NCBI GenBank assembly: GCA_012523595.1
Contig: JAAYIG010000016.1
Span: 1 to 36,507 of the forward strand
DNA: 36,507 nucleotides
Direction of reading: 5' to 3'
From: Fibrobacter sp.
GTDB lineage: Bacteria > Fibrobacterota > Chitinivibrionia > Chitinivibrionales > Chitinispirillaceae
Below, in pieces: positions 3,684 to 27,744 of the stretch. A program made the translations under genes and the position numbers. The notes beneath the pieces are model-generated. The model had not been told where the DNA came from. It ran no database searches and was given only the letters and a program-made list of their open reading frames with translations. Numbering within the stretch: the stretch's first letter is position 1; each line of letters begins with the position of its first letter.

Positions 3684-5738
3684 TTGTTTAAACCTGTTCT
3701 CAATGCTTTACCTGGAACCTGGAGATTGTATCAATTGTACCTGAACCTGCTTTCAAGCCTTCTGATCTTCACAGTTTCCCCTGACTCTGTTTCTGCCAAC
3801 CTGGACACTATGGTAGTTACAGACAGCAGATCCGTCAAAAACATATCAACAACCTTTCAGCAGCAGCGATTCGGGCTCAGCGATGACATAAGCAAACTGC
3901 TCTATCTCCAGCCTGGTGTCGACCGGCTTCCTGAAACCGGTTCCGCCAAGCTTGTACGGGGATGCGGTCTTTATGATAACCTGTTCACAATTGCAGGTGT
4001 ACCCATGCTCAATCCGGTTCATTTCGGCCTGCATTCTTTCGCGGACCGCACCGGAACAATCTTCTCATCCATCGAAAATGTAAAGTTTATCACCGATGGA
4101 GCCGGTGAGTATTGTGATGCACCCGGAGGTCTCACTGTTATCGAGCCGTCTATACCCAGACTCCCTGGAGGAAAACTGAATATTCTTGGAAATATCGGGA
4201 TTCTCGATTGGGAAACGCTCCTCTCGGCTCCTTTACGGAATGGGGATGATCTGGTTCAAATCGGGATACGGAAATCAAACGAATTGATGATGCGCTGGAA
4301 GAATTCCGCGTGGGGAAATGGTAACTCTCCCCTTTCACCATTTGTATTCAGTGATTCCGCGAAACTGGGATATTCTCCTCCGGGATCTTTCTACGATATC
4401 TGCCTGACAACTTTACATAAAATTCACAGTTCAAAGCTGAAAAACCATTTCTGGTATGCGCTCGATACTTACAAGGCATCAGGAAACAGGGATGAAAGGA
4501 ACATACACTGGGGACTTTTCTCCAGCACTCTGGAACTTCACAATCACACGCTTCTCCGCGAGATCACCATTGGCGGTTCTTCACAGCAATTTTTCGAGGG
4601 CAAAAAATACGGCCCTGTTATCCCTCTTAAAGAGGTAAAAAGAAACAACCTGATCCTCTCCGGAGAGATGCGCCCATGGGAATGGGAATCGACCGGACTT
4701 GACATCCATTCAAAATTCTCGGTGGAAACGATGAAATGGGATGGGAAACTTACGTTTGACAGTTCACGCTCAATCAACCGGGAAATTTACGAAGATTACA
4801 GATCCGGTGAAACTGAATTCAGAGGGACATTGAGCACCGGTTTAAAGGGTGGAAATCCGCCATTTTATTTCGGTACTGATATTCTATCCTGTATCAACGG
4901 ACCCGGCATCGATATTTTCTTTGACCCGCGGATCTGGTGCAGCTATTCCGGCACATGGTTTCAATACACAGGAAGTATCGGCGCCATGTCATCATTCCCG
5001 GATATCAGAGGCCTTCCCGATTCCAGATACCGTCATGACAAATACATGACATATTCACAATTAAATGATCTGAAATTTTCATTTTTCAAGGGTCTCATCA
5101 ATTTGACTGCCCAGACCCATATCAGATATTCCAGTGAATATCCCGCTTTTTCCGATATTCCCGGAAAAATCATGTGGGACCCTGACTGTGAAACCCGTTT
5201 TATCTCCGCAGGAGCGGGTCTCTTTGCTGAAATCAACAGAAAAAACATCGGGTTCTCTACATTTCAGAATATCGGGAAATCTTACCGTCTTGTCAAAAAC
5301 ACCCGTTACCCGTTCGAATATGACATCCCATGGTCAAATAAATCCGTCCTGCGACTCAGTACCACTTCCGGCAGGGTCAACCTGTTTCTCTACGGGTACT
5401 TTGCAGCCGGATTGCCTTTCAGGGACCTGGAAATGAAAAATGAGGAATTGGTATTTTCAGAAAAAATAAAACGGGTTAAAGCCTATAAACGCCTTGACAG
5501 TAAAATAGAGTTCTTCAATAAAATCGATCACCCTTTTATCGATCACTGTAATCTGTATATCGATTTTCTGAACCTGGCAAATGCCTTCGAAGGGCGGTTG
5601 GGGCCAAAGAACGCATCAAAGTGGTACTGGGAAAATGACAGAGAGTATTACTGGAACGATACATTACAAAGGCAATCGATTCAGGTCGAGAAAGCCACGA
5701 TTGCTTTTGGATTAAAACTTGGATTAAAGCTGTTCTGA
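3684..5738 (+). CDS. TonB-dependent-receptor-like outer membrane protein
   Basis: 684 aa from the TTG at 3684. After a hydrophobic secretion signal (LLSSLLIFTVSPDSVSA) the N-terminal ~130 residues resemble a TonB receptor plug: LLYLQPGVDRLPETG, then LVRGCGLYDNLFTIAGVPML and NPVHFGLHSF. The rest is rich in alternating aromatic/polar beta strands and ends in GLKLGLKLF with a terminal Phe, as in outer-membrane barrels. The start is uncertain: 3684 has no clear ribosome site, whereas the in-frame TTG at 3735 has GGAG 10 bp upstream but gives a signal lacking basic residues. It is shorter than typical SusC proteins (~1000 aa), no SusD-like gene is adjacent, and I see no carboxypeptidase-like extension. 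Divergence from GH51 suggests uptake or binding of the same glycan; the ligand is unknown. Confidence 0.7.
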   Translation: MFKPVLNALPGTWRLYQLYLNLLSSLLIFTVSPDSVSANLDTMVVTDSRSVKNISTTFQQQRFGLSDDISKLLYLQPGVDRLPETGSAKLVRGCGLYDNLFTIAGVPMLNPVHFGLHSFADRTGTIFSSIENVKFITDGAGEYCDAPGGLTVIEPSIPRLPGGKLNILGNIGILDWETLLSAPLRNGDDLVQIGIRKSNELMMRWKNSAWGNGNSPLSPFVFSDSAKLGYSPPGSFYDICLTTLHKIHSSKLKNHFWYALDTYKASGNRDERNIHWGLFSSTLELHNHTLLREITIGGSSQQFFEGKKYGPVIPLKEVKRNNLILSGEMRPWEWESTGLDIHSKFSVETMKWDGKLTFDSSRSINREIYEDYRSGETEFRGTLSTGLKGGNPPFYFGTDILSCINGPGIDIFFDPRIWCSYSGTWFQYTGSIGAMSSFPDIRGLPDSRYRHDKYMTYSQLNDLKFSFFKGLINLTAQTHIRYSSEYPAFSDIPGKIMWDPDCETRFISAGAGLFAEINRKNIGFSTFQNIGKSYRLVKNTRYPFEYDIPWSNKSVLRLSTTSGRVNLFLYGYFAAGLPFRDLEMKNEELVFSEKIKRVKAYKRLDSKIEFFNKIDHPFIDHCNLYIDFLNLANAFEGRLGPKNASKWYWENDREYYWNDTLQRQSIQVEKATIAFGLKLGLKLF

Positions 5739-13829: not shown

Positions 13830-13887
13830 TTGAATTCAACCAATATACGTCTTTTTATAGCATTTTCATTGTTGTCATTTTACAACA
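13830..13887. promoter_or_regulatory. Inverted repeats upstream of regulator/lipoprotein module 1
   Basis: Two dyads lie here: TTGAATTCAA (13830-13839, no spacer) and TGTTGT-CATTTT-ACAACA (13870-13887; 6-bp arms, 6-bp spacer). The second resembles the 20-bp operators upstream of the other units but is 2 bp shorter between the TGTTG and CAACA halves, so it may be the site of a regulator with altered specificity. Confidence 0.45.
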
Positions 13888-13998: not shown

Positions 13999-14829
13999 AT
14001 GATCACAATCTTTGACTATACTGATTTCCGTAAATTTCTTTCCGATTATCATGAGGAATTGAAGAAGGAAAACCCCCGATTCTCTTACAGATTTCTTTGC
14101 GCACAGGGGGGTATAAATCCGGGGAATTTCACCAGGATACTCAAAGGGGAAAGAAACCTCACTCTCCCATCGGCAATCAGACTCGCCCGTGTGCTTAAAC
14201 TCAACAAGAGAGAACGCGACTATTTTCAGTCAATGGTTCTTTTCTGCCAGGCAAAAAACCATGAGGAGAAGCGGCGCTGTTTTGAGGAACTGATGAGCTA
14301 TAAGGAATCATCCGTGCGTATTCTCGATGCCAGTCATTATCAGTTCTATGATAAGTGGTATTACACAGCAGTGCGGGAAACGCTTGCGTTTTTCCCGTTA
14401 ACCGATAGTAATTTTGCCGAACTGGGGAGATGTATTACTCCCGCCATTACAGAAAAAGAGGTCTCCCGGGCAATTTCTCTTCTTCTTGAGCTCAAACTTG
14501 TGGAAAAAGACAGTCAGGGCCGGTATATACGAACCGATGCTCTTATCTCCACCGGAAACCAGATCCGTTCACTGACCCTCAATAACTTTGTTATCAACAC
14601 CATGAAACTGGCTGAGGAGGCAATCAACAGCGGAACAGACGAGACAAATCTCTCATCAGTCACTTTCTCCATCAGCACAGACGATTTCGCGGCTGTCCAG
14701 GATGAGATCCGGAGATGCCGCCGCAGAATAATGGAGATCGCAAAGGAAAGTGAAAAACCGGACAGGGTTTTTCAGCTCAACACACAATTGTTTCCCTTGA
14801 CTAAACGGTACACAGGAGGGAAAACATGA
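13999..14829 (+). CDS. TIGR02147/DUF4423-family regulator, module 1
   Basis: 276 aa. The N-terminal ~75 residues resemble a phage-repressor-type helix-turn-helix: FDYTDFRKFLSDYHEELKKE, then FLCAQGGINPGNFTRILKGE and a recognition/packing helix before the conserved KRERDYFQSMVLF. The remaining ~200 residues match DUF4423: QFYDKWYYTAVRETLAFFPL, a winged-helix-like segment (EVSRAISLLLELKLVEKDSQ GRY), and the C-terminal FSISTDDFAAVQDEIRRC and VFQLNTQLFPLT. The family is typical of Fibrobacterota and has no established mechanism; the N-terminus argues for DNA binding. The stop overlaps the lipoprotein start by 4 nt (ATGA). Confidence 0.87.
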   Translation: MITIFDYTDFRKFLSDYHEELKKENPRFSYRFLCAQGGINPGNFTRILKGERNLTLPSAIRLARVLKLNKRERDYFQSMVLFCQAKNHEEKRRCFEELMSYKESSVRILDASHYQFYDKWYYTAVRETLAFFPLTDSNFAELGRCITPAITEKEVSRAISLLLELKLVEKDSQGRYIRTDALISTGNQIRSLTLNNFVINTMKLAEEAINSGTDETNLSSVTFSISTDDFAAVQDEIRRCRRRIMEIAKESEKPDRVFQLNTQLFPLTKRYTGGKT

Positions 14830-16463
14830 ACTCTCTCCTGTACTCTGCGATTATTATTTCACTATTCTCAATTTCCTGCATGCAGCTCTCACCAGTGGTC
14901 AAGGGCGGCGGCTCTGAGGTAGAGGTTGTGGGAACCGCTTATTTTGAAAACGGAGAAGAAGCCTCATATACCCAGGTCAAGCTGATTCCGGTTGGCTACG
15001 ATGCTGTCTCGATGGAAAGTATTCCTGATTCCATGCTTGACACCAGTGATGCGCATGGGAGGTATTCTTTCAGGGGCGTTGAGCCCGGCTCTTACAATAT
15101 TCAGGCGGTACACCTTAGTGAAAGAACAAGATTTCTTCTCACTGGAATTGCAGTATCGGACGACACAGCTTTTGCCCCATCAGGAACTCTTCAGAACCCC
15201 GGCTCGATTCGCCTTTTGCTTCCGGAAACAGATGTCTCATCCGGTGACTATGTTAGTATTTCAGGAACCGATATCGCAGTCTTTACAAAAGGCGAAGACG
15301 AAGTGATTCTGGACTCTGTTCCGGCGGGTATTATTCCACAACTCAGATACATAAATGACGGAAGTGTGGTTTTTACGAAATTCAATGTGACTGTTTTATC
15401 AGACGACACAATCACGATTGCAAATCCCTTATGGAAATACTCTCATCCCGTTCTTCTCAACACTTCCCAGTCAGGTGCGGACATAAAAGGAGATGTATAT
15501 AATTTTCCGCTGCTTGTCAGACTTGACGAAGAAAATTTCGATTTCAGCCAGGCGAAACCGGACGGCTCCGATATCCGCTTTACAAAATCTGACTATTCAC
15601 CGCTTGAACACGAGATTGAGCGCTGGGATCAAAGCAGTTATCAGGCGGAGGTCTGGGTAAAAGTCGACACGCTTTTTGGCAATGATTCACTCCAGTGGAT
15701 AATGATGTACTGGGGAAATGAAGATGCTCAAGACCGTTCAAATGCCGCAGCAGTTTTCGATACTGCATCAGGGTTTCAGGGAGTATGGCATCTTGCGGGA
15801 GATCAGAATGAATACGATGCTACAGCCAACAGTTACGATGGAGTAGCTTACGGGATGGCTGAGGGGGCTGTCGGGGGAATTATCGGAAAAGCAAGATCGT
15901 TTGATGGGACCTCAAGCCATATAAAAATGCCCAATACTGCAAACAGCAAGCTCAACTTTCCGGAAAACGGGAGTTATTCGGTTTCAGCCTGGGTAAATCT
16001 TGATTCCCTTGACCTTGCTTACCGTACGATTATCTCCAAAGGATACTACCAGTACTACATGCGTGTCACATGCATGTTGACCGATAAACCTCTGTGGGAG
16101 TTTGTAGAATTTGACCAGAGTTCAAACTGGAAATCCTCCACAGTTCCCGCAAGCGCAAAGCAATGGGTATACCTTACCGGTGTAAAAAAAGGTAGTTCCC
16201 AGTATCTGTTCTGTAATGGTGAACTTGTTGACAGCGTAACAACAAACTATCCTAACATGCTCTCCAGAAATACTTCATCTGATATATCCATTGGGGGGTT
16301 TCTTGATGAGGTTACTTTCCCTACAATAGAGGGATACTGCTTTTTCAAGGGAAAAATCGATGAAGTCCGGATTCAAAACACAGCCTGCAGTGAGGACTGG
16401 GTGAGGCTCTGTTATATGAATCAGCGTTCCGACAACAGACTCGTGGTTTTTCAAAGCCATTGA
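14826..16463 (+). CDS. DUF2341/LamG surface lipoprotein, module 1
   Basis: 545 aa. A lipoprotein signal ends at SISC with lipidated C18. After a short linker with KGGGSE comes a carboxypeptidase-regulatory-like beta domain (~35-105: SDAHGRYSFRGVEPGSYNI) and a second beta segment. A DUF2341-like domain follows (~205-310: FPLLVRLDEENFDF, RFTKSD, HEIERWDQ, VWVKVDTL), then a LamG/concanavalin-like domain (~315-540: GVWHL, ARSFDGTSSHIKM, YSVSAWVNLDS, GKIDEVRIQN). LamG folds commonly bind glycans. Co-translation with the regulator and closeness to esterases suggest a surface glycan-binding protein or sensor; no catalytic residues are evident. Confidence 0.87.
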   Translation: MNSLLYSAIIISLFSISCMQLSPVVKGGGSEVEVVGTAYFENGEEASYTQVKLIPVGYDAVSMESIPDSMLDTSDAHGRYSFRGVEPGSYNIQAVHLSERTRFLLTGIAVSDDTAFAPSGTLQNPGSIRLLLPETDVSSGDYVSISGTDIAVFTKGEDEVILDSVPAGIIPQLRYINDGSVVFTKFNVTVLSDDTITIANPLWKYSHPVLLNTSQSGADIKGDVYNFPLLVRLDEENFDFSQAKPDGSDIRFTKSDYSPLEHEIERWDQSSYQAEVWVKVDTLFGNDSLQWIMMYWGNEDAQDRSNAAAVFDTASGFQGVWHLAGDQNEYDATANSYDGVAYGMAEGAVGGIIGKARSFDGTSSHIKMPNTANSKLNFPENGSYSVSAWVNLDSLDLAYRTIISKGYYQYYMRVTCMLTDKPLWEFVEFDQSSNWKSSTVPASAKQWVYLTGVKKGSSQYLFCNGELVDSVTTNYPNMLSRNTSSDISIGGFLDEVTFPTIEGYCFFKGKIDEVRIQNTACSEDWVRLCYMNQRSDNRLVVFQSH

Positions 16464-16557
16464 CAAGTAATATCCGGCTGCAACAGGAGCAGAAGTGTAT
16501 CGGTTCAGAAAAAGGACACTCTTCCGACAGGAACATAAAAGTTTTTGAGGAGGTTAT

Positions 16558-17628
16558 ATGTTTAAAGCCATCACACTCACAACATCGATTCTGTTTCTGG
16601 CGGCCAATCTCTTTGGGCAAACCGGAAGTTTTGTGTCAGGGGGCCAGAGCCGCACCTTCTATGCCCATGTTCCCTCTGGCCTGCAAAATCCGCCACTGGT
16701 AATAAGCATGCACGGGATGGGCGGCAACGGTTCACAGCAGCGCCAGATGTCAAGATTCGACCAGTTGGCGAACAGGGAAAATTTCGTTGTGGTTTACCCT
16801 GATGGTATTAACAGCCAGTGGGATATTTCCGGATCAACCGATGTCAATTTTCTCCTGGCTCTCATTGACACCATGCATGCCCGGCATGGCATCGACCGTA
16901 ACCGGGTTTACGCCACAGGGTTTTCCATGGGTGGCATGATGAGTTACAAGCTGGCTTGTTCTGCGGCAGATAAAATCGCGGCAATAGGGCCGGTAGCCGG
17001 TTACCCTCTGGGAGGCATGATTGGCAGAACCTGTTCACCTGCACGCCCTGTTCCAATCATCCACATTCATGGTTCAATAGACAATGTAGTCTCCTTTCCG
17101 GGCCTCGCTTCATACATAAGCCAATGGGTGGAGAAAAACGGGTGTCCCGGTACAGCACAGATAACGCAGCCTTACCCTGAATCCAAACCTTCTTCAAAGG
17201 TAAAGAAAGAGTATTACGGGGTCTGCAACCAGGAAAGTGAGATAATTGTACTTACAGTCGAGGGGATGGATCATGCTTATCCGGGCAGCTTCGGATCATC
17301 GGATATCAATGCGAGTGAAGAGATCTGGGCATTTTTCAAGACTCACGCCCCTGGTTCAATTGATGTCGGCTATTTCTCTCAAAGTAAAGGATATTCCCCC
17401 CCCATTTCCGCATTCTACAAAGCAGGGAAAATTCACCTGCAAAACAGACAGGAGATTCGCAGTATCCGGGTTATGGATCTTAGCGGGAAAATTATCTGTA
17501 CATTCAAAGCAGGCAAAGAGCCTGTGAAAGCAGTTTCATTTCCGTTAAACCGAACCACCAGAGGAGTTTATCTGATCGATGTCTTTGATATCACTGGCCA
17601 TTCAGTGCTGAATATCACAGTGTATTAG
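16558..17628 (+). CDS. Secreted CE1/PHB-depolymerase-like esterase with sorting domain
   Basis: 356 aa, with a strong ribosome site GAGGAGG before the ATG. The signal peptide covers ~1-20 (ITLTTSILFLAANLFG). The alpha/beta-hydrolase domain has HGMGGNGSQ (52-60, oxyanion region), the nucleophile elbow GFSMGG with S123, D175 in HGSIDN and H239 in GMDHAYPG. This arrangement matches LpqC/feruloyl and acetyl-xylan esterases. The last ~75 residues (IRVMDLSGKIICTF, TRGVYLIDVFD) are a type A sorting-like domain. It probably removes feruloyl or acetyl groups from xylan; which one is not decidable. It follows lipoprotein 1 after 94 bp on the same strand. Confidence 0.88.
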   Translation: MFKAITLTTSILFLAANLFGQTGSFVSGGQSRTFYAHVPSGLQNPPLVISMHGMGGNGSQQRQMSRFDQLANRENFVVVYPDGINSQWDISGSTDVNFLLALIDTMHARHGIDRNRVYATGFSMGGMMSYKLACSAADKIAAIGPVAGYPLGGMIGRTCSPARPVPIIHIHGSIDNVVSFPGLASYISQWVEKNGCPGTAQITQPYPESKPSSKVKKEYYGVCNQESEIIVLTVEGMDHAYPGSFGSSDINASEEIWAFFKTHAPGSIDVGYFSQSKGYSPPISAFYKAGKIHLQNRQEIRSIRVMDLSGKIICTFKAGKEPVKAVSFPLNRTTRGVYLIDVFDITGHSVLNITVY

Positions 17629-17711
17629 TTCTGTATATGAAATTATCGGCGATTTCTTTATTCGGACACCTGATTATCAAAAGAAAACTAAACCAACTAA
17701 GGAGGTTTCTT

Positions 17712-18662
17712 ATGCGCCGTTTTTCGCTTTTAACGCTTGCCCTTTTGTTGATTTGTAAACTAACTGTGCAGTCGCAATCAATCAAAGGAAGCGATGTGCT
17801 CATTATCGGTGATTCGTTTTTTGCCATGTCCAATGAGATCAAGAAATTTCTTGAAAACCATGCCCGGGCGGATGGTGTAATAAGGCAGGACGAGAGCTTC
17901 CGCAGCGGCGCAGTATCTGGTGCCATACTTTCTGAAATATCGGGTCAATACTCAAATGCAAACCCCAAGCCGAAATGGGTTATCATGGATGCCGGCGGCA
18001 ATGACTGTCTTCTTGCAAACTGTTCCAACCCTGTTAATATTCAGTGTCAAGGTCTTAAGTCTGCTCTTGACGGTGTGCAGCCGCTGCTGGACAAAATGAA
18101 AGCAAACGGCACAAAAAAGGTACTCTGGATGTGTTATCCTGAGCCACAGGGATTTATGGCGGGGGGGTTGAAGCCAAAGCTGGATGTCCTGATGCCTGAG
18201 GTTGAAAGAATCTGCAAAGCCAGCACAGATCCTGAAGTCTTGTGGGTTGATCTGCGGCCGGTATGGGGAAATAACAGCAGTTATACCGGTGACGGCATCC
18301 ATCCAACAACCGCAGGAAGTCAGGCAACTGCCGATGCCTTCTGGGATGCAATAAAAAGCAGTAACTTTTTTGGCTCAACGGGAAACGCTCTCAACAGAAC
18401 AAAAGCTGTTCTGCCTTTGAGTCTTGAACATTCAATCACTAATGACCAGATGATTCTCTCGGTCTGCCTGTCTCAGCCGTCAAACATTACCGCACGCATA
18501 TTATCACTTTCAGGCAGAGTTGTATCATCGAAGGTCAACAATGAGCAGACTGCCGGAATACGCACTGTTCGTTTTCCTGTAAGCACGCTCTCCCCTGGAA
18601 TATATTCCATCCAGGTTGAAGCAGGACAATTCTCTAAAATGTCAACACTTATGGTACCATAG
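17712..18662 (+). CDS. Secreted SGNH/GDSL hydrolase with sorting domain
   Basis: 316 aa. The start at 17712 is preceded by AAGGAGG (17699-17705), and the protein then begins with a normal signal peptide (MRRFSLLTLALLLICKLTVQ); the longer frame from 17637 lacks this. SGNH blocks: IIGDSFF (catalytic Ser), GNDC (block III Asn), and DGIHPTTAG near the domain end (Asp and His). The C-terminal ~80 residues (ARILSLSGRVVSSKV, STLSPGIYSIQVEAG) form a sorting-like domain. Together with the upstream esterase it suggests deacetylation of hemicellulose; some SGNH enzymes act on other esters. Confidence 0.87.
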   Translation: MRRFSLLTLALLLICKLTVQSQSIKGSDVLIIGDSFFAMSNEIKKFLENHARADGVIRQDESFRSGAVSGAILSEISGQYSNANPKPKWVIMDAGGNDCLLANCSNPVNIQCQGLKSALDGVQPLLDKMKANGTKKVLWMCYPEPQGFMAGGLKPKLDVLMPEVERICKASTDPEVLWVDLRPVWGNNSSYTGDGIHPTTAGSQATADAFWDAIKSSNFFGSTGNALNRTKAVLPLSLEHSITNDQMILSVCLSQPSNITARILSLSGRVVSSKVNNEQTAGIRTVRFPVSTLSPGIYSIQVEAGQFSKMSTLMVP

Positions 18663-18694
18663 TATCACAGGTAAATTTCCGCTCCCTCTGTAGG

Positions 18695-18726
18695 CGGGGT
18701 GCCTCGTCAATTAACGGGGTGCCTCG
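18695..18726. repeat. Tandem 12-bp direct repeat followed by a T-run
   Basis: CGGGGTGCCTCG occurs at 18695-18706 and 18715-18726 (period 20), the second followed by CTTTTTC. The layout (G-rich 12-mer, then T-rich tail, twice) resembles the paired GGGACGGAC repeats next to the transposase at 36087-36132. It may be a degraded transposase-associated repeat. The gap 18663-18839 also holds an inverted repeat GTTTCAG (18785-18791) with CTGAAAC (18804-18810). Confidence 0.5.
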
Positions 18727-18839
18727 CTTTTTCTTATTAGGCAGAAGTCTTCGACCAGTGTTGAATAAATCACCCAAAAAATCAGTTTCAGGCATTATGT
18801 GATCTGAAACAGCAATTATTGCTACTTAATTAAAATGCC

Positions 18840-18859
18840 CGTTGAACATCTGTTCAACA
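18840..18859. promoter_or_regulatory. 20-bp inverted repeat, putative operator (copy 2)
   Basis: CGTTGAACATCTGTTCAACA has perfect GTTGAA/TTCAAC arms around a 6-bp spacer (symmetry extends to GTTGAAC/GTTCAAC). It stands 54 bp before the module 2 regulator ATG, the closest operator-to-gene distance of the three. Confidence 0.65.
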
Positions 18860-18913
18860 TTTTTACAGGCAGGAACCTGTTTAAACCCGGAAATCAGGTA
18901 TATTATATATAAT

Positions 18914-19738
18914 ATGAAGCGAATTTTTGAATATTTCGACTATCAGAAATTCCTGCGGGATTATTACGAGGAAAAAAAGCGGGATAATCCTTATATTTCT
19001 TTCAGGTTTCTAGGCAACCACATGAATCTTGATCCGGGGTTTCTTCTGAAGGTTATTCAGGGGAAGCATCACCTGGCAAAAAGATCCATCGCACCGGTTT
19101 GCGCATTTTTCAAGTTTTCGGAGCAGGAAGCACGCTACTTCGATGTCCTTGTAAGTTACAATAAAGCTAAAACAACTTCTGACATTAAGCTATATTTTGA
19201 GAAGCTGATGACTCTCAGGGAACCTGGATGCAGGCCTTTGGAGGAGTGGCAGTATGCATTTTACCAGAAATGGTATCACAGCGCTATCCATGCGCTTCTT
19301 TCTATTTATGAATTCCGTGGCAGTTACAGGGAACTTGCTTCAATAATGACTCCTTCCATTACCGCTAAACAAGCAAGGGAATCGATACAACTGTTAACCA
19401 AAATAGGATTGGTCAGACGCGATGAGGACGGCGTTTACAGGCCGACTGATGCTTTTGTCACCAGCGGCGAGCGATGGCAATCCATTGCAATACAGAATTT
19501 CCAGAAGGAGACCATCACTCTATCTGCACAGTCTCTTGATCTGCATCCAAAAGAACTCCGTGACATTTCAACTGTCACTGTAGCCCTTTCCAGGAAAGAC
19601 CTGCCTGAGATTCGTGAACGTATCCGCCAGCTAAGACAATCTATCCTTTCACTTGAAAATGACAATGAGCCAGACACTGTGTTTCAGATAAATATTCAGG
19701 TCATCCCTGTAACAAATCCTCTCGGGGGTGACTCGTGA
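18914..19738 (+). CDS. TIGR02147/DUF4423-family regulator, module 2
   Basis: 274 aa from the ATG at 18914. The upstream in-frame TTG at 18842 lies inside the operator-like repeat and would add a stretch absent from the two paralogues, so it is rejected. The N-terminal helix-turn-helix region (FDYQKFLRDYYEEKKRDNP, FLGNHMNLDPGFLLKVIQG) and DUF4423 landmarks (YAFYQKWYHSAIHALLSIYE, TKIGLVRRDEDGVYRPTDAF, VFQINIQVIPVT) match the paralogues. The ribosome site is weak; a TATAAT-like string sits directly before the ATG. The gene overlaps the next by 4 nt (GTGA). Confidence 0.86.
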   Translation: MKRIFEYFDYQKFLRDYYEEKKRDNPYISFRFLGNHMNLDPGFLLKVIQGKHHLAKRSIAPVCAFFKFSEQEARYFDVLVSYNKAKTTSDIKLYFEKLMTLREPGCRPLEEWQYAFYQKWYHSAIHALLSIYEFRGSYRELASIMTPSITAKQARESIQLLTKIGLVRRDEDGVYRPTDAFVTSGERWQSIAIQNFQKETITLSAQSLDLHPKELRDISTVTVALSRKDLPEIRERIRQLRQSILSLENDNEPDTVFQINIQVIPVTNPLGGDS

Positions 19739-21390
19739 AACATCTTTGGCTGATCCTCTCTTCTCTTCCGGCACTCTTTTTTGCCTGTTCAATCGGAGAT
19801 ATTGCAGGAAGCAAGGGCGGTTCTGAAACAACCAACGGTGTCTATGCCTGTGTGCTGAATCCTGATGGGAAACCTGCTGCCGGCAGTGCGGTCCGCCTGC
19901 GGAAATCAGATTATGTCAGCCAGCCGTCTATGCTTGCAAAGAAAACTATCGACCGTAAAGAATTGATCACCGATTCAACGGGCAGTTTTCTTATCACCGG
20001 TATCGATCCCGGAGAATACTATATCGAAGTTAACGATACCGCGACCCGATCCGGAGCCGTTCTGTTTAGTTTCACTATCGGTAACAACAAAGACACCCTT
20101 GATCTGGGATCCGATTCGCTGCGTCCTTACGCTGTTTTAAGAGGGCAGATCGATACCGATTCTACCGAAAGTAACCGGTTTTTCGTTCAGGTAAAGGGGC
20201 TTGAGCGGCTGGCAGAGGTTGATACCAATGGGTCGTTCATAATTAATGATCTTCCGGAAGGCTTTCTGGATGTGGTTATAAGTGGTGGAAGCACGTCAGG
20301 TACTGAAAAAGAGCTTAAAAATGTAAAAACCGCCTCTGATGACACTGTCACAGTCAGGATTTCAGGCAGTTCCGTTTATTGGGAATATATATACCTCAAT
20401 ACGGCTTCTGCCTCGCTGTCCGGTTCCGCAATTACCGGCTTCCCTGTGCTTATCAGACTGAATTCATCATCGTTTAATTTCGAAGAAGCAGATCCGGAAG
20501 GAGACGACATTCTCTTTACCAAAGCAGACGGAACAGCTTTGCCCTTTGAGATCGAACAGTGGGATAACCTGACCGAAGATGCCGTTATATGGGTGAAACT
20601 TGATACTATCTCAGACAACAGCACCGATTATTTCATAGTGATGAAATGGGGTGGAACAGAAGAAAACCGGTCAAATGGAGCTGCAGTTTTCGATACTGCA
20701 AACGGTTTCGCAGGTGTATGGCACCTCAATGAGAATCCCTCATCCGGTACCGGTTCCCTGAAGAACCGGACTGGAAACAGATACCATGGTACTGCGGGAC
20801 TCAGCATGACAAGTAATAATTCCGTAGAGGCTGTTATCGGAAGAGGCCTTTGGTTTAACGGCATCACCGACACAGTGAATGCCGGCGTGCTTAATCTGGA
20901 AGAGAATTACACTCTGAGCTGCTGGATTAAAGCGGAGAAGAGTCCATGGAGCAACTGGAGATTAATCATTAAAGAAACATCCTACACCCTGTGGTATGAC
21001 ACAGTCTTCAATGGTTTCCGTTCCGAGCACTTTGTTGACACCTTTACATGGCATGGAATTTACCAGGATTGTGACAATTCCAATCCCTACCCAGTCACTC
21101 TTGATACCTGGACATACCTTGCAAGCACCTATGATGGAAACAGGATACGTCTCTATATAAACGGAGAAATAGTAGATTCCACCAGCAATATCAGTATGAA
21201 TCCACACTCCAATACTGACAATCCGCTTCTTTTCGGCGGGAGACTCTACAAGGGCGAAATCAGTGAATTCTTTAAGGGCGTAATGGACGAGGTACGGATC
21301 GAGAACAAGGCCCGCTCAGCAGAGTGGATTAGACTCTGTTATCTCAGCCAGCAGCCGGGCAGTAAAATTGTGAGATTCAGGAACAAATAA
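19735..21390 (+). CDS. DUF2341/LamG surface lipoprotein, module 2
   Basis: 551 aa from a GTG start. The lipobox FFAC gives C18, followed by AGSKGGSETTNG, the same glycine-serine-glutamate motif as in the other two lipoproteins. Then come a carboxypeptidase-regulatory-like domain (~35-110: STGSFLITGIDPGEYYIEVN), a second similar beta repeat (~130-190: TNGSFIINDLPEGFLDV), a DUF2341-like domain (~215-320: FPVLIRLNSSSFNF, LFTKADG, FEIEQWDN) and a LamG-like domain (~325-550: FAGVWHL, LWFNGITDTVN, YTLSCWIKAE, GVMDEVRIENKARSAEWIR). It ends 58 bp from the convergent zincin gene. Confidence 0.87.
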   Translation: MKHLWLILSSLPALFFACSIGDIAGSKGGSETTNGVYACVLNPDGKPAAGSAVRLRKSDYVSQPSMLAKKTIDRKELITDSTGSFLITGIDPGEYYIEVNDTATRSGAVLFSFTIGNNKDTLDLGSDSLRPYAVLRGQIDTDSTESNRFFVQVKGLERLAEVDTNGSFIINDLPEGFLDVVISGGSTSGTEKELKNVKTASDDTVTVRISGSSVYWEYIYLNTASASLSGSAITGFPVLIRLNSSSFNFEEADPEGDDILFTKADGTALPFEIEQWDNLTEDAVIWVKLDTISDNSTDYFIVMKWGGTEENRSNGAAVFDTANGFAGVWHLNENPSSGTGSLKNRTGNRYHGTAGLSMTSNNSVEAVIGRGLWFNGITDTVNAGVLNLEENYTLSCWIKAEKSPWSNWRLIIKETSYTLWYDTVFNGFRSEHFVDTFTWHGIYQDCDNSNPYPVTLDTWTYLASTYDGNRIRLYINGEIVDSTSNISMNPHSNTDNPLLFGGRLYKGEISEFFKGVMDEVRIENKARSAEWIRLCYLSQQPGSKIVRFRNK

Positions 21391-21409
21391 TCTAATTATT
21401 CAGGAAAAG

Positions 21410-21437
21410 CGGAGGGCAGAATCGTATCTGTCCTCCG
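21410..21437 (+). terminator. Hairpin between convergent genes
   Basis: The 11-bp arms 21410-21420 (CGGAGGGCAGA) and 21427-21437 (TCTGTCCTCCG) pair with one G-U in the plus-strand transcript. The plus side lacks a T-run; on the minus strand a CTTTTC follows. It probably separates the two convergent operons. Confidence 0.55.
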
Positions 21438-21448
21438 GACTATCGGAA

Positions 21449-23269
21449 TTACCTCACAAGCGATATAGACTCCACCATCGAGTGTCTGTTTGTCAAAACT
21501 CTGACGATGTAAGTCCCGGTTGAAGCTGCAAACCGGTCAATGCTGTACTTGTCCTCATGATACCCCGCCTGTTTGAATCCCTTGTCAAGGACTGTAATCA
21601 GTTCTCCGGAAGGGTTGTAGACTTTGACAGTTACCGGTGTCGGACTGCTGACTTTGTACCCTACGACCAGATCCTGATAGTTCCTGAAAGACAATTTCAG
21701 TTCCGGGGTTTCTTTCTTTTTCGTAACAACTGTCTGTTCAACATTTTTAACTGCCAGATCTACATCGTACCATTTGGTGTATATATCCGCTGTGCCGGTT
21801 ACCCCTGTACCAAGCTTAAGCCTGTAATCATAATGTGCCTTGCGTGTATCATCTCCTTTGTAAACATAATCGGTGTTGCAGATAACCGCTATCACCACAT
21901 TGTTTGCCGGAGCCTTGTCCAGACGGATACTGCATGTTCCACTCGTTACAGGGACACTGTAGACCGGTGTCCCGTCAGTGGCACGGTAACATAATTGACA
22001 AGACATATTCGCTCCGATCGGCTGGAAATCGACACTTACCATGTTTCCCGATACTTTCAGCGGGATCTGGTTTGCCCCGGACCATCCCGGAGTGGTGCGC
22101 TGTTCAGGCGTGAGCAGACCGTTTCCATCGTTTGTGGTCTTTGCATAAGGTGTCATCTTCCAGGTTTCACAGTTGATCCAGTAAGGCTCCCATTCCGCCC
22201 CGATATTCTGGCCAATATTGGAATTTAAGAGTCTCTTGCATTCATTGGACCATTTTTTTATGTCAAGCAAGGCTGTTCTTGCCCTGTACTCCATTATCAG
22301 ACGGCGGACCTGCTCCTCTCCCAGCTGTTTGGCCATCCCTTCCAGTATCCGACCTGTGCAGTTTTTCCAGATCCAGGGAATACTCCCCAGCCCAAGCCAT
22401 TCTCCAAGAAAGGTCGGGAAGATATTGCCATACTGCGTTCCGCCGAGAAATTTACGCCATGTACAGATCTGCTGGCTTCCCTCAAACATGTTGACTCCCT
22501 CAGCCGAGGGGCCCCCAAAGCTCCCATCCTGAAGCCATCCGCTGTAGCACTCAATCGGCATGAAAGGAGCAATCAATGCTGCTCCGTTAAGAAAACCCAT
22601 GGAACTGTAATTATTGGTCTGCTGGGCTGTAGCCTGCTGCTGAAGCCAGGTATTTCCTCCCTCATGAAACCAGGCCGCCTGTCTTGCCCCTGGAAGACTG
22701 GCCAGAATACAATGAATACCCTCGTGAACCATTCCTCCTGTCTGAAATTCCTTATCATTGTAATTGCATGATGGATCAAAGCAGTAAACCGGATAATAGG
22801 ATGCCAGAATGATGGGGTAACCTCCAACAGAACTCTGCCATCCACCCTTTTCCGTATTAGAGGCGTTATCTGTGCACAGGCCCGAACCATAAAGGTAAAC
22901 AGCACTTCTATACCCCTCCTGAACACGCCTGTCCGGTGGCCATCCCATCACATCCCTGAAATATGCAAACTCCTCATTCAACCGCTTCAGCATTGGAGTG
23001 ATTGCTGCCTCTGTCACCAGAGAATTCTTTCTTGATCCCCACTTGAAAGTCCACCATCCCGATGACTGCGTTCCCGCAACTCCTGAGCAATCATCACGAT
23101 CCTTGGTAGGCATGGGGAAATTCGGGTTCTCATCCTTAAAGTTATAGTTGATTGTCGGGCTGTAGGCCGGCCAGATGTAGGGGTCACCCTCCGCAGCATA
23201 ACCTTCCCCCTGACTGATCAAAAATACCATCCCTGTACACAACAGAATATCTCTCAACTTCTTCATCAC
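21449..23269 (-). CDS. Secreted HExxH zincin-like protein with sorting domain (DUF6055-like)
   Basis: 606 aa. The signal peptide covers ~1-25, ending GEGYAAEG. The central domain has HEGIH (182-186), an HExxH zinc motif, and 16 residues later WFHEGGNTW, where E203 could be the third ligand as in gluzincins. Many Trp/Tyr and Cys residues follow. A beta domain (~400-510) precedes a C-terminal sorting-like domain (VTVKVYNPSGELITVL, ASTGTYIVRVLTN). The layout is reminiscent of DUF6055-type extracellular proteins of fibre degraders, but the family name is recalled rather than tested. It could be a peptidase or glycopeptidase trimming cell-wall or surface glycoproteins. It lies on the same strand as the GH43-module 3 genes, 197 bp downstream; that gap contains no gene. 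Confidence 0.75.
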   Translation of the reverse strand: MMKKLRDILLCTGMVFLISQGEGYAAEGDPYIWPAYSPTINYNFKDENPNFPMPTKDRDDCSGVAGTQSSGWWTFKWGSRKNSLVTEAAITPMLKRLNEEFAYFRDVMGWPPDRRVQEGYRSAVYLYGSGLCTDNASNTEKGGWQSSVGGYPIILASYYPVYCFDPSCNYNDKEFQTGGMVHEGIHCILASLPGARQAAWFHEGGNTWLQQQATAQQTNNYSSMGFLNGAALIAPFMPIECYSGWLQDGSFGGPSAEGVNMFEGSQQICTWRKFLGGTQYGNIFPTFLGEWLGLGSIPWIWKNCTGRILEGMAKQLGEEQVRRLIMEYRARTALLDIKKWSNECKRLLNSNIGQNIGAEWEPYWINCETWKMTPYAKTTNDGNGLLTPEQRTTPGWSGANQIPLKVSGNMVSVDFQPIGANMSCQLCYRATDGTPVYSVPVTSGTCSIRLDKAPANNVVIAVICNTDYVYKGDDTRKAHYDYRLKLGTGVTGTADIYTKWYDVDLAVKNVEQTVVTKKKETPELKLSFRNYQDLVVGYKVSSPTPVTVKVYNPSGELITVLDKGFKQAGYHEDKYSIDRFAASTGTYIVRVLTNRHSMVESISLVR

Positions 23270-23466
23270 TGCCTCCCTCTGTTACATGCACTGAGTTTAA
23301 CTGATTTAATAACACTCATTTATTTTGCCTGTATCTCTACAGTGTAACATCCGCATTTTTGTGCTCCGGATGCATCCCCTTCATTTTTTAGACAAAATCC
23401 CCCCCTGCCCGGCATTTCTGCCCAGTAAAACCAAACCATCAAGTACTTTTCCGATTTACATGTATA

Positions 23467-25044
23467 TCAGTAGTTTACAAGCCTCTGGTCTAAGCGCTGA
23501 TTCTCAAAGCATAACTTCAGCCATGCCCCATCCCTTGCACGGCTGCACACACGCACCTCATCTATAAGCCCCTCGAAATTGCAGGATTCCCTGAATGCCT
23601 GTCCGATGTATGTATCTGAACCGACTTTATTGTAAACCAACGCATCCAGCATTTCAGCCTGACTCTTCAACACACCATCGATGTAGAGAAAGACCTGACC
23701 TGCATCAGAATCGATCACTATAGCCACAAAATGCCACTGCGATTCAGGCGTCTCAACCCTGGCACTGATCGGAAGCCAGCTTGTTGCATCACCATAGGAA
23801 TAGTAACTGTAAAAATCAACCCAGTTGCTGTCGCTTGAAAACCGGATACCGGCATTATCACCTATGGATATGATCTCCCCCACACTGTCGGCACTGTTGA
23901 TCCAGGCGCTGATAGTCAGTGATGCGGGTTGATCGAGGAGACCCGGTATCTGTATGAACCCGTCGACACCGTTGAATTCCTGGCAAGATCCGATTATACC
24001 TGCTGATAATCTGCCCGTTGCCATGTTTAATCCGCTCCCGTTCCGGCCGTGAGATGTTGCATCTTTATATTGATCCTGTCCATTTCCGGATACCTCGCTC
24101 AGGTGCCAGACACCTGCGAACTGATCCGCATCAAAAACCTCAGCAACCCCAGACCTGTAAGAGGAAGAACCGGATCCATAGTGCATGTACAAAAGGGTAG
24201 TATCATTCCCTTTTACTGTGTCAACTTTAACCCAGACAACAGCTGTGCCGCCCGCCTGATCCCAGGACTCTACCTGATGTGCAAGCGGGGTTCCATCACC
24301 TTTTGTAAAACAGACAGCACTGTCTTCCGGAACCGGTAATTCACCCCCCAGCCGGATCAACACCGGGAACGAAATTACATCCTCAGCCACATCACTGCCT
24401 TCAGCGGTTGTATTCAGTATGATCGCTCTTGAGAAGCGGTAGCCGACAACATTTATCTCACCGCTTTCGGCTTTAACACTGTCAATAAGCAGAGGCAGTT
24501 CCTGAGGGTCTTCGGAAATTATCCGGAATGTATAGATGCCTTCCGGCAGGTCATCGAAATGATACGACCCGTCCTGCAAAACAGTCACTATCCTCTCCAT
24601 CCCCTCAACCTGCACATATCTGAGGTACTGATCCGACGGCTCTATCTTTCCGCTTACACGTGCATAAGGATTAAGAGTGATAGTGTCAGTCCCGGATCCG
24701 CTGTCTGCACCTGCAGTAAAACTGAACAATCCGGCACAGGACTGGGTGTCATTTATTTCCACATAGTATTCACCGTTCTCCAGGCTGTCTATTGTCAAAT
24801 ACCCGGAGCTGTCGGTAGCAGTGTCGATAACAGAATAGACATCCTCAATCACTCCACCAGTGCGGGCGAAATAATCAGCAGGACGCACTCTCACAAGGGC
24901 TTCTCTGGCAGGTTTGCCATCGGGCAGAAGGGCCAGAACAGTGAATCCATTCTGAGTCTCAGATGATCCCCCTGCGCCAGCCAGATTATTGATGCCTGAG
25001 CAGGAGAGGAGGAGCAAGGCTGTTAAAGTGATCAGTATTCTCAT
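23467..25044 (-). CDS. DUF2341/LamG surface lipoprotein, module 3
   Basis: 525 aa. The lipobox LLSC gives C15, followed by AGAGGSSETQNG, matching the motif in its paralogues. Beta domains cover ~30-105 (SSGYLTIDSLENGEYYVEIN) and ~125-180 (DGSYHFDDLPEGIYTF). DUF2341-like, ~200-300 (FPVLIRLGGELPV, CFTKGDG, QVESWDQ, VWVKVDTV); LamG-like, ~305-520 (FAGVWHL, QEFNGVDGFIQI, LTISAWINSAD, GLIDEVRVCSRARDGAWLK). The start overlaps the regulator stop by 4 nt. The presumed operon is GH43, regulator, lipoprotein. Confidence 0.87.
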   Translation of the reverse strand: MRILITLTALLLLSCSGINNLAGAGGSSETQNGFTVLALLPDGKPAREALVRVRPADYFARTGGVIEDVYSVIDTATDSSGYLTIDSLENGEYYVEINDTQSCAGLFSFTAGADSGSGTDTITLNPYARVSGKIEPSDQYLRYVQVEGMERIVTVLQDGSYHFDDLPEGIYTFRIISEDPQELPLLIDSVKAESGEINVVGYRFSRAIILNTTAEGSDVAEDVISFPVLIRLGGELPVPEDSAVCFTKGDGTPLAHQVESWDQAGGTAVVWVKVDTVKGNDTTLLYMHYGSGSSSYRSGVAEVFDADQFAGVWHLSEVSGNGQDQYKDATSHGRNGSGLNMATGRLSAGIIGSCQEFNGVDGFIQIPGLLDQPASLTISAWINSADSVGEIISIGDNAGIRFSSDSNWVDFYSYYSYGDATSWLPISARVETPESQWHFVAIVIDSDAGQVFLYIDGVLKSQAEMLDALVYNKVGSDTYIGQAFRESCNFEGLIDEVRVCSRARDGAWLKLCFENQRLDQRLVNY

Positions 25045-25877
25045 GTCTTCTCCTGCCTTTTCTGCACATCAGATACCGGGAAAACCTGCATGTTGACCTG
25101 ATAGGCGCAGTCAGTCTCTTCATCCTCGGCAACTCTGGAAATGATGGCCTGACGACACTGTTTGAGTATCTCCCTTATATCATCAAGTGTATCACTTTTC
25201 ATCGTAAGAGTCAGTGAAGAAATATCTCTGATCTCTTTAGGAAAACGCTCGATCGCCTCCTCCGAAAGGCGAATCATCTCTGCCTGGAACTTACGGACCG
25301 CAAGAGACTTGAACTGCGAGCCTGTGGATATGTGAAGATGGGTTCTTTCAAAAAAGCCATCTTCATTGCGACTTATAAGCTTCAGCTTCTCCAGAAGCTC
25401 CACCGCTTCCTTTGCCTCTTCAGTACTGATCTGAGGAAAAACGGCCTTGCTTAACTGCTTGTAATTGTTCTTTACAGGGAAAAAACCGATTACCGCCAGA
25501 ACTGCTGAGTAGTACCATTTTTTATAGTACTCGTACTGAAGCGAATCGAGACAGGTGGATTTTACTCCACCCTTAAGCTGCATTATTTTCTCGAAATATA
25601 TCGATGCTTCCGAGTCGGTCTTCGCCCTGGCAAATCCTACAAGCGCCTCAAAGTATTCTATTTCCACGGGCTGGAAAGAGAAGTAGGCAGCAATAGAGGG
25701 AACCTTTTTCAGAGAAAGATGTTCCTGTTTCTGCATGATTCTGAAAAGGTAAGCTGCGTTGAGGCCCAGTTTGTTGCCGAAAACACGAAGTGAAAACCAC
25801 GGCATCTCCCGCTTCCGTTCGTTGTAATAGTCGTGAAGGAAGTCACGGTAGTCTATGTATGTAAAGACATGCTGCAT
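25041..25877 (-). CDS. TIGR02147/DUF4423-family regulator, module 3
   Basis: 278 aa. N-terminal helix-turn-helix-like region (FTYIDYRDFLHDYYNERKRE, FGNKLGLNAAYLFRIMQKQE) and the DUF4423 body (YEYYKKWYYSAVLAVIGFFP, AKEAVELLEKLKLISRNEDG, STGSQFKSLAVRKFQ, DCAYQVNMQVFPVS). It starts 33 bp downstream of the GH43 stop on the same strand, so it is probably transcribed from the operator-bearing GH43 promoter; this ties the regulator family to a hemicellulase directly. It overlaps the lipoprotein by 4 nt. Confidence 0.87.
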   Translation of the reverse strand: MQHVFTYIDYRDFLHDYYNERKREMPWFSLRVFGNKLGLNAAYLFRIMQKQEHLSLKKVPSIAAYFSFQPVEIEYFEALVGFARAKTDSEASIYFEKIMQLKGGVKSTCLDSLQYEYYKKWYYSAVLAVIGFFPVKNNYKQLSKAVFPQISTEEAKEAVELLEKLKLISRNEDGFFERTHLHISTGSQFKSLAVRKFQAEMIRLSEEAIERFPKEIRDISSLTLTMKSDTLDDIREILKQCRQAIISRVAEDEETDCAYQVNMQVFPVSDVQKRQEKT

Positions 25878-25910: not shown

Positions 25911-27620
25911 TCAGTAAACAAACGGCACCTGAAAACTGCCCGATTTTCCTTTTATCAACAGAACATACTTACCGGAGGAAATGTTTCCTTTCCCCGATGA
26001 TAATGTAAAAACATTCCCTCCGGCCACACTGACCGGATTTATCACCCTCTGTCCGTTCATGTTAAAAACGGCAAGTCTGTATGGTTCACCGGTTCCCGGG
26101 ATTCTCACCTGCAATGCTCCACCGATATCTGACCTGACCAGTTCAAAGGAGGTCTTGACTGTTTTCCATGCTCTCTGCGATGCACCTGTAGACTGCTGCT
26201 TTCCTATGCTTATCCAGTTGACATTGTACTGATTGGGAGCGGTTGTCTTGAAAACACAGAAAAGATCGTTTATTCCATCTACCCTCAACCCTTCCTGGGT
26301 GACCGGCGCAGTGACTGTCTGCCATTTTGTCAATCCACCCGTTGAGGGGACCTGGACTGTACCCAGCAGTGTTCCTGTACGGCTGCCTGCACGCACCTCG
26401 ATCGCTCCCCCGGAGCTCACCGAGGCTACCCTGGCCATAATATTACCCGAACTCTTGTCTGTAGTGGAGAAATCGACTTCATTATACCTTATATAACCAT
26501 CATTGCTGATATTTGACACCATCCATCCCCTAGGTTCACCTCCACCAACAACACTTACCCGCGCACCGCTTATTCCGGACGGTGAATGACGGTCTATCTG
26601 AATTGTATCATAACTGAAAGGAACCCCTACACCCCTGTAAGTTTTTTTAAGCTGTGGAATGGTCCATGGATTACCTGACTTATTAAAGTCAAAATATTCC
26701 GCTCCCGTGACCCTCTTTGTCCCTGTATTGATTGTCCCTCCGAATTCATTACCACCCGTATGATAGAATATCACCCATTTCCCAAGAAAGTGGACCACCC
26801 CCGCATGTATTGTTGCGCTGTTTGTGTTCTCATTTAAAATTGTGCCCCGTTTCGTATATGGGCCAAAGAGACTTGTTGAAGTAGAGTAGGTGATCGATTC
26901 AACTGCTCCTGTCCAGTCAGCCAGAATACAATACCACAAGTTGTTCTGCTTTATGATCCATATTCCCTCTTTGTACCTTGTGGATGATCCTAAACCCTGG
27001 GTAATATCGTAGGAATTTCCTATGGCATCACTGTATGTCGAATTCAATTCTTTCAGATAAACCTGGTTGGGCGTTCTCCCAACAATATCCCAGCCGATAT
27101 ACGCTTTTCCCGTCCCGCCATCTGCGGTGTCAAGGAGAACAAAAGGATCTATGGCATCTGACCCGCACCCTGCCATGTAGTTGCGATCAGGAACAAAAGG
27201 CCCGGTTGGGGAATCTGCAACGGCATGACCAATACGGAAAGTCCTCCCATCATTTGCCGGAAAGTATAGATGAAACTTCCCGCCAAGCTTTATGCAATGA
27301 GGTGCCCACAGATTCCCGATTTTTGCTGCCCAGGGGATATCCTTCTCGGTGAGCACAACGCCCTCATATTTCCAGTGATAAAGGTCTTCTGTGGAGTAAC
27401 AAGTGATATCATAAATTGAGAGATCCCCGTTTCCGATTGCATCCACGGTACAATACAGGTATACTTTATTCCCTTCAACCATCGGAGCAGGATCAGAAGT
27501 CCCCTCATTTCCGGGGATAAGCTGATTATCGGCTTTAATTGGCAACGGTATCAGCGCTATTGCCATTATCATGTAAAAAACTGTTACAGTCCTGCCCGGA
27601 AAGCACTTAGGATTCCTCAT
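25911..27620 (-). CDS. Secreted GH43 glycosidase with CBM6-like and sorting domains
   Basis: 569 aa. The ATG at 27620 is chosen because GGAG (27631-27628) precedes it by 7 bases; a GTG at 27650 would add ten residues. Signal peptide ~8-30 (TVTVFYMIMAIALIPLPIKA). The five-bladed propeller shows GH43 residues: D43 in TSDPAP (base), D158 in AIDPFVL (pKa modulator) and E218 in YKEGIWII (acid). A CBM6-like module follows at ~360-460 (YNEVDFSTTDKSSGNIMARV, IEVRAGSRTGTLLG, WQTVTAPV). The final ~80 residues form a sorting-like domain (YRLAVFNMNGQRV, SSGKYVLLIKG). It is probably a beta-xylosidase, arabinofuranosidase or related enzyme. First gene of the operon with module 3; an operator lies 104 bp upstream. 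Confidence 0.9.
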   Translation of the reverse strand: MRNPKCFPGRTVTVFYMIMAIALIPLPIKADNQLIPGNEGTSDPAPMVEGNKVYLYCTVDAIGNGDLSIYDITCYSTEDLYHWKYEGVVLTEKDIPWAAKIGNLWAPHCIKLGGKFHLYFPANDGRTFRIGHAVADSPTGPFVPDRNYMAGCGSDAIDPFVLLDTADGGTGKAYIGWDIVGRTPNQVYLKELNSTYSDAIGNSYDITQGLGSSTRYKEGIWIIKQNNLWYCILADWTGAVESITYSTSTSLFGPYTKRGTILNENTNSATIHAGVVHFLGKWVIFYHTGGNEFGGTINTGTKRVTGAEYFDFNKSGNPWTIPQLKKTYRGVGVPFSYDTIQIDRHSPSGISGARVSVVGGGEPRGWMVSNISNDGYIRYNEVDFSTTDKSSGNIMARVASVSSGGAIEVRAGSRTGTLLGTVQVPSTGGLTKWQTVTAPVTQEGLRVDGINDLFCVFKTTAPNQYNVNWISIGKQQSTGASQRAWKTVKTSFELVRSDIGGALQVRIPGTGEPYRLAVFNMNGQRVINPVSVAGGNVFTLSSGKGNISSGKYVLLIKGKSGSFQVPFVY

Positions 27621-27658
27621 TTTTTTTCTCCATAGTAGTGATTTGTACACTCAACCGA

Positions 27659-27724: not shown

Positions 27725-27744
27725 TGTTGAGCAATTACTCAACA
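27725..27744. promoter_or_regulatory. 20-bp inverted repeat, putative operator (copy 3)
   Basis: TGTTGAGCAATTACTCAACA has perfect 7-bp arms and a 6-bp spacer. Its near edge is 104 bp from the GH43 ATG, almost the same distance (106 bp) as copy 1 from GH51. On the minus strand a weak -35/-10 pair (TTGCTC, 17 bp, TACCAT) would overlap its downstream arm. Confidence 0.65.

Follow-up and report, generated by a model that had tools for sequence, protein, structure and literature searches.

Paired TIGR02147 regulators and lipoproteins as candidate glycan-response cassettes of the Fibrobacterota

Introduction

In Clostridium thermocellum, biomass-sensing SigI/RsgI pairs control polysaccharide-degradation genes (PMC12203970, PMC4711584) and occur as many paralogous two-gene units in which a cytoplasmic regulator is joined to a glycan-binding module outside the cell. 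In the FecI/FecR extracytoplasmic function (ECF) switches of polysaccharide utilisation loci, a cytoplasmic regulator likewise acts with an envelope partner beside glycan genes, and the hybrid two-component sensors of Bacteroides use Reg_prop propellers as their sensor fold. The Fibrobacterota are major degraders of cellulose and hemicellulose in the rumen and in termite guts, and how their output of enzymes is adjusted to the substrate is, to our knowledge, not understood. Here, a stretch of 36,507 nucleotides from a Fibrobacter sp. genome (assembly GCA_012523595.1, contig JAAYIG010000016.1; hereafter the window) is examined, in which a first-pass annotation had pointed out three regulators of the family TIGR02147, each followed by a lipoprotein gene that overlaps it by 4 nt, and had read these pairs as one repeated functional unit for polysaccharide use.

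The pairs resemble SigI/RsgI in their two-gene, paralogous layout, and the partners carry a LamG/ConA-like domain, recognized by sequence and by predicted fold, that may serve as an external carbohydrate-binding module. They are nevertheless not members of that class, because they contain no sigma factor, the regulators matching only TIGR02147 and DUF4423, and no transmembrane partner; instead of an anti-sigma protein that spans the membrane, the partner is a lipoprotein with nothing cytoplasmic before its short signal peptide. Unlike in FecI/FecR switches, no sigma or anti-sigma domain was detected in the window regulators or in 95 partners, although no genome-wide ECF search was made; similarly, no SusC/SusD-like pair was met among the genes scanned, a genome-wide search not having been made. 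Reg_prop propellers do occur in 4 of the 95 partners, but the pair includes no kinase, receiver or membrane-spanning protein. The XRE-like regulator with a partner gene directly downstream also recalls the RRNPP systems, from which the pairs differ in lacking a TPR domain, in the MarR/MecI-like winged helix predicted within DUF4423, in the large size of the partner, a lipoprotein, and in a partner signal peptide that is not conserved. The window regulators are clear members of TIGR02147 (Fsuc_second, an NCBIfam paralog family) and of DUF4423, and neither a lipoprotein partner nor operators are part of the family definition as seen here. The earlier statement that TIGR02147 has no established mechanism holds: the family is without a described function and no paper naming it was found, one paper listing a Bdellovibrio DUF4423 protein. 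The genome paper of the relative Chitinispirillum makes no mention of lipoproteins.

Adjacency of regulator and lipoprotein genes

The three pairs of the window lie, regulator before lipoprotein in the direction of transcription, at 13999-14829 and 14826-16463 (plus strand; pair 1), 18914-19738 and 19735-21390 (plus strand; pair 2), and 25041-25877 and 23467-25044 (minus strand; pair 3). In each, stop and start overlap by exactly 4 nt (ATGA at 14826-14829, GTGA at 19735-19738 and ATGA at 25041-25044), confirming the pairs and overlaps as first described. The regulators (276, 274 and 278 aa) align over positions 1-271 of the 272 of TIGR02147 with 274, 270 and 266 bits (cut-off 50 bits), and their C-terminal parts match DUF4423 (PF14394; E values of 1e-31, 2e-36 and 6e-31). 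For regulator 2, the mechanically called reading frame begins further upstream, at TTG 18842; the start is most likely ATG 18914, since this agrees with the homologs and keeps a candidate operator (18841-18858) within the promoter. All three lipoproteins carry DUF2341 and LamG, as had been claimed. That of pair 1 combines a lipobox, a GGGSEV motif, a beta-sandwich, DUF2341 and LamG (Laminin_G_3). That of pair 2 (551 aa, GTG start) has a signal peptide at residues 1-17, the lipobox cysteine at 18, the motif GGSETTN and CarboxypepD_reg-type sandwiches, followed by DUF2341 (256-327) and LamG (381-532), and that of pair 3 (525 aa) has GGSSETQN after the cysteine.

The source genome (4.1 Mb) encodes 23 TIGR02147 genes, one of which abuts an N gap; for 21 of the 22 testable genes, the next gene downstream, at a spacing of -16 to +7 nt, encodes a lipobox and signal peptide. 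The sole TIGR02147 gene of this genome that lacks a lipoprotein partner (G000:C99:17638-18447; L029) encodes an extra basic C-terminal tail. The survey was then set within the Fibrobacterota, where TIGR02147 is present in 130 of 137 genomes, using 139 distinct TIGR02147 genes from most families of the phylum (137 testable) and, as controls, other genes of the same loci. A lipoprotein gene lies within 30 nt downstream of 126 of the 137 TIGR02147 genes versus 17 of 542 control genes (Fisher p ~1e-103); the automatic count of 126 includes one locus (L161) at which the partner lies one gene further and the adjoining secreted protein is a different one. Far from most TIGR02147 genes lacking a partner, an outcome that the first-pass annotation had named as speaking against its reading, the great majority thus have one. 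Its description of the coupling as fixed needs to be relaxed: a spacing of -4 nt is the commonest among the 126 pairs (55 pairs, with -1 in a further 20), but the range extends from -23 to +15.

Whole-genome counts agree with this sample. In five genomes, 67 of 69 full-length regulators have an adjacent partner (G000, 21/22; G026, 23/23, one with an interposed gene; G043, 13/13, one divergent; G136, 9/9; G021, 1/2), and the rare rearranged pairs are still adjacent, the lipoprotein being upstream of the regulator at L238 (G021) and divergent from it at L243 (G043). Conversely, a 203-position profile built on the N-terminal part of the lipoproteins recovers from the source genome only partners, plus a protein on C156 cut at the contig start, and of the 65 matches to a shorter profile (63 positions around the lipobox) in ten genomes, 58 are directly downstream of a TIGR02147 gene. 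In five searched genomes free of TIGR02147, matching lipoproteins are nearly absent. Adjacency of regulator and lipoprotein is therefore a genome-wide and phylum-wide rule in the Fibrobacterota. The seven genomes without TIGR02147 (G007-G011 and G024-G025) belong to two genera and measure 2.5-2.9 Mb. In G026, two lipoproteins with the N-terminal tail profile have no TIGR02147 gene near them (C14:59020, L235; C16:18600, L236), and two TIGR02147 genes are shortened to the N-terminal helix-turn-helix part (~110 matched positions; C7:43540, L239; C27:59284, L240). A scan of genome contigs with one protein yielded just five close loci, and a search of plasmids for TIGR02147-type loci returned nothing.

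Conserved and exchanged parts of the pair

The partners share a plan of short signal peptide, lipobox cysteine, a tail with a conserved motif, a beta-sandwich and a variable C-terminal domain. The motif after the lipobox approximates GGxSETxN (variants include GGSETTN, TVTDTGNT, GIEIGNP and GTETGNP), and the tail that contains it is conserved across 13 families, while CarboxypepD_reg-type beta-sandwiches were found in 67 of 95 partners. By sequence, the constant parts of the partner are this motif and the N-terminal beta-sandwich. LamG/DUF2341, which had been taken as the hallmark of the partner, ends 25-27 of the 95 and is too narrow a description, being one C-terminal domain among several that also include Kelch, LRR, NHL, Reg_prop (two-component-regulator propeller), CBM4_9 and pectate-lyase-like domains. 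In 105 of 129 partners the cysteine is followed by Ser, Thr or Gly, and in only 4 by Asp, which, by the +2 rule of Escherichia coli, points to an outer-membrane location. Among orthologs of partner 2, identity is lowest in the signal peptide (0.29), highest in the tail after the cysteine (0.73) and about 0.5 in the domains.

The same division emerged when the two proteins were compared across 82 pairs. The 60 residues after the cysteine vary in step with the regulator (Mantel rho 0.30, 0 of 200 permutations), whereas the part beyond residue 200 shows no such correlation (rho 0.003, 82 of 200 permutations), so that the co-inherited unit appears to be the regulator with the lipoprotein tail, the outer domains having been swapped. 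A model of partner 2 (predicted local distance difference test score (pLDDT) 76, predicted template-modelling score (pTM) 0.67) has a lectin-like C-terminal domain, and its LamG end is closest to carbohydrate-binding domains, namely domain 4 of the arabinanase AbnA (TM-score 0.69 by target) and the lectin domain of NanA. Matches of the LamG model to neurotoxin-binding domains were set aside as reflecting only the common ConA-like lectin fold. The partners are predicted to bind glycans.

The structure prediction that had been proposed for the regulator yielded, from 11 sequences, a model (pLDDT 78, pTM 0.43) whose N-terminus has five helices in an XRE-like fold and whose DUF4423 region contains a winged helix; both features are predicted in regulator 2. 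Solved structures match it weakly and domain by domain (HigA and C.AhdI; MarR and MecI). The two predicted domains fit a soluble DNA-binding protein.

Candidate operators and predicted regulons

Footprinting of the regulator 2 promoter showed that the upstream DNA has diverged except for an inverted repeat, GTTGAA-N6-TTCAAC, retained in 4 of 5 orthologous loci. The window copy, GTTGAACATCTGTTCAAC (18841-18858), stands 55 nt ahead of the regulator 2 start codon (ATG) and is kept in the orthologs L141, L142 and L143. There are nine copies in the 4.1 Mb of the genome versus 0.33 expected and none of a reversed-pattern control, and all nine are upstream of genes. The second window copy (3488-3505) lies between divergent genes, ~107 bp upstream of an alpha-L-arabinofuranosidase gene (1572-3380, minus strand; C-terminal domain PF06964, E 3e-36), which is its predicted target; the other predicted targets are regulator 2, GH10, GH43 and GH62 glycoside hydrolases, a PETase-like esterase, a DUF362 protein, a TIGR02147 gene divergent from GH27, and a protein with CBM6 and CBM35 carbohydrate-binding modules that is GH30-like by eye. 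The glycoside hydrolase families with this site before their genes are GH10, GH27, GH43, GH51 and GH62. Copies in three related genomes stand before GH10 and GH30-like genes (G013, G012) and before TIGR02147 genes (G012, G016). Taken together, this set looks like an (arabino)xylan regulon. The arabinofuranosidase gene shares the promoter site at 3488-3505 with the divergent gene at 3684-5738 (plus strand), whose 684-aa product resembles, by eye, a TonB receptor plug region; a Pfam scan of it at 1e-4 gave no match.

Other pairs have other arms. TGTACT-N6-AGTACA, taken from the promoter of a regulator on C168, has five genome copies, which precede that regulator, a pectic lyase, a CBM6 protein, another secreted protein and, on another contig, a pectate lyase; these genes appear to form a pectin regulon. 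TGTTGAG-N6-CTCAACA has four copies versus 0.016 expected (control 0), located before the GH43 operon of pair 3, two DUF6055 proteins and a DUF5695-GH43 gene pair. The window copy, TGTTGAGCAATTACTCAACA (27725-27744), is 74 bp upstream of the GH43 open reading frame. As the two DUF6055 secreted proteins (L279, 218-1801, and L281, 3771-5690, both minus strand) carry the operator of the GH43 operon, they may act on the same glycan. A regulator on C241 and two GH43 genes have a further palindrome, TGTTCC-N7/8-GGAACA, in front of them. The candidate operator of pair 1, TGTTGT-N6-ACAACA (13870-13887), conforms to the TGT...ACA pattern of the other sites; it occurs once in the genome (0.33 expected), which is not significant alone and leaves it without regulon evidence.

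The general form of these sites, TGTnnn(n)-N6-(n)nnnACA, is found upstream of regulators and polysaccharide-degrading genes, and TGT-type palindromes number 23 in 49.6 kb of intergenic DNA, compared with 1.3 in shuffles and 11 in ~282 kb of coding DNA. A generic test for upstream inverted repeats gave no excess (79 of 139 regulators versus 162 of 317 neighboring genes as controls, the controls including predicted targets); what carries information is confined to the TGT...ACA class and to arm sequences that recur. A sigma-70 promoter scan revealed nothing that told activator from repressor. Candidate operators were also noted in other families, as TGTTTTC-N5-GAAAACA (four copies; L169 and L170 of G028) and as TGTTCG palindromes in a divergent regulator promoter (L153 of G136).

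The reading of these palindromes as terminators or chance repeats, with the pairing as an old duplicated gene pair of no regulatory meaning, draws on the T-runs that follow two window sites and cause them to be flagged terminator-like, but for the GTTGAA, TGTACT and TGTTGAG sites it is refuted in the main and is very improbable overall, given that exact arms recur four to nine times genome-wide before one functional class, with reversed-pattern controls at zero, and that a terminator makes no sense at 3488 and C241:10613, where the sites lie between divergent genes.

Possible links between lipoprotein and regulator

Observed directly are a near-obligate adjacency, a common lipoprotein tail, co-variation of the regulator with the lipoprotein N-terminus only, and pair-specific operators before functionally coherent genes. 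On balance, we lean towards regarding the pairs as self-contained glycan-response cassettes, each made of a DNA-binding regulator of a substrate-specific regulon and a dedicated outer-membrane lipoprotein that binds glycans and is probably a receptor. In such a cassette, the soluble, cytoplasmic regulator would bind an 18-20 bp palindrome with pair-specific arms located before its own operon and before a group of genes for secreted polysaccharide-degrading proteins. The lipoprotein made alongside it would be anchored in the outer membrane, expose a glycan-binding or propeller/repeat domain outward and act as a substrate-specific receptor; the tail after the lipidated cysteine and the first beta-sandwich would be the parts tied to the regulator, and the exchangeable C-terminal domain would set the ligand. 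That the lipoprotein is the input that confers substrate specificity is the most likely interpretation, because the tie to the regulator is confined to its tail, the outer domain being exchanged, and because adjacency survives changes in gene order. In its most general form, the proposal is of a phylum-wide signaling class in which each soluble DNA-binding regulator answers to an outer-membrane lipoprotein receptor of its own, the pair having no kinase, sigma factor or membrane-spanning subunit, with the tail after the cysteine as signaling element and the outer domain as exchangeable glycan reader; this we put forward tentatively, as slightly short of an even call.

Several observations weigh against the cassette model. 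There is no obvious physical link between a soluble regulator and an exported lipoprotein, and neither a third component nor a membrane-spanning one was identified. Confidence in the regulator model is modest, and its E-values to known folds are weak. The operator pattern, clear in the family of the source genome, is weaker or scattered elsewhere (f5, G043 of f9, and f13), and was not found in the sampled Fibrobacter promoters. Since two regulators share the GTTGAA site, a one-to-one assignment of sites to regulators is not proved, and the predicted targets include the DUF362 protein and some proteins without an assigned function.

The main alternative makes the lipoprotein an output: it would capture glycans at the surface or act as an adhesin, and the regulator co-expressed with it would itself sense an imported oligosaccharide or another cytoplasmic cue. 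Lectin-type domains would catch substrate, the lipoprotein always lies within the operator-controlled operon, one-component regulators commonly bind small ligands, and no link across the envelope is known. Moreover, several envelope lipoproteins of F. succinogenes with carboxypeptidase-regulatory-like domains differ between cellulose and glucose (PMC6851124), although they have not been shown to be these partners. Co-expression, however, does not account for a tail that 13 families have retained and that varies with the regulator even as the binding domain is swapped, for adjacency kept in divergent and reversed arrangements, or for the rarity of such lipoproteins outside pairs. We regard this alternative as quite possible without holding it likely.

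A different link is conceivable in which the lipoprotein, still a precursor with its signal peptide and tail, is bound by the regulator before export, so that export flux sets regulator activity and the gene overlap lets both proteins meet during synthesis. This would account for why the genes are translationally coupled (at -4 or -1 nt in 75 of 126 pairs) and why a short N-terminal tail, visible to the cytoplasm only before export, is conserved. Yet some functional-looking pairs are divergent or reverse-ordered, and the signal peptide itself is not conserved; we consider the idea improbable. Far less room is left for an RRNPP-type route, in which a fragment of the lipoprotein signal peptide re-enters the cytoplasm as regulator ligand in the manner of enterococcal pheromones. 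Lipoprotein signal peptides do serve as pheromone sources elsewhere, the regulator has an XRE-like helix-turn-helix, and a putative peptide gene follows it immediately, but the signal peptide is the least conserved segment of the partner and the regulators have no TPR domain, Pfam giving only DUF4423 and the model matching a winged helix.

Neighboring genes of the window

Of the genes said to be interleaved with the pairs, three types were recovered and one was not. A secreted polyhydroxybutyrate (PHB)-depolymerase-type esterase (16558-17628, plus strand; NF050058, 173 bits against a cut-off of 150) begins 94 nt past lipoprotein 1 and is followed by an SGNH/GDSL hydrolase with a C-terminal tail of the type IX secretion system (T9SS) type (17637-18662, plus strand; PF13472, TIGR04183). 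A GH43-CBM6 enzyme (25911-27650, minus strand; PF04616, E 2e-33; PF03422, E 2e-21) lies 33 nt upstream of regulator 3 and is likely the first gene of a GH43-regulator-lipoprotein operon. The protein at 21449-23269, previously called a zincin, had no match in a Pfam scan at 0.01. Enrichment of carbohydrate-active enzymes beside the pairs appeared genuine, with GH43, GH5, GH127, GH27 and CBM6 members among 30 adjoining genes, but only family totals are available and it is not used here as proof. C-terminal sorting tails of the T9SS type and InlB-B-repeat-like (Flg_new_2) linkers joining catalytic to binding domains are features of many predicted target enzymes (noted at window 17637-18662 and in the L033, L034 and L270 enzymes).

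Implications

The initial interpretation is thus partly supported as a whole: the adjacency census and the palindromic sites bear out one repeated unit with a lectin-like lipoprotein, linked to polysaccharide degradation. What has been demonstrated amounts to a new regulator family that comes with candidate operators and a partner; the palindromes are probably bound by the regulator itself. For the largest uncharacterized regulator family of the Fibrobacterota, this provides a testable role, candidate DNA sites, regulons predicted to serve the use of xylan and pectin, and one partner per regulator. The outer domains, which vary while the tail stays constant, would in addition be a natural source of glycan-reading parts. 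The question raised is by what route a surface lipoprotein could reach a cytoplasmic regulator; the receptor link, if true, would be a new kind of signal transduction, and the pairs point to an undescribed form of plant-polysaccharide sensing by fiber degraders.

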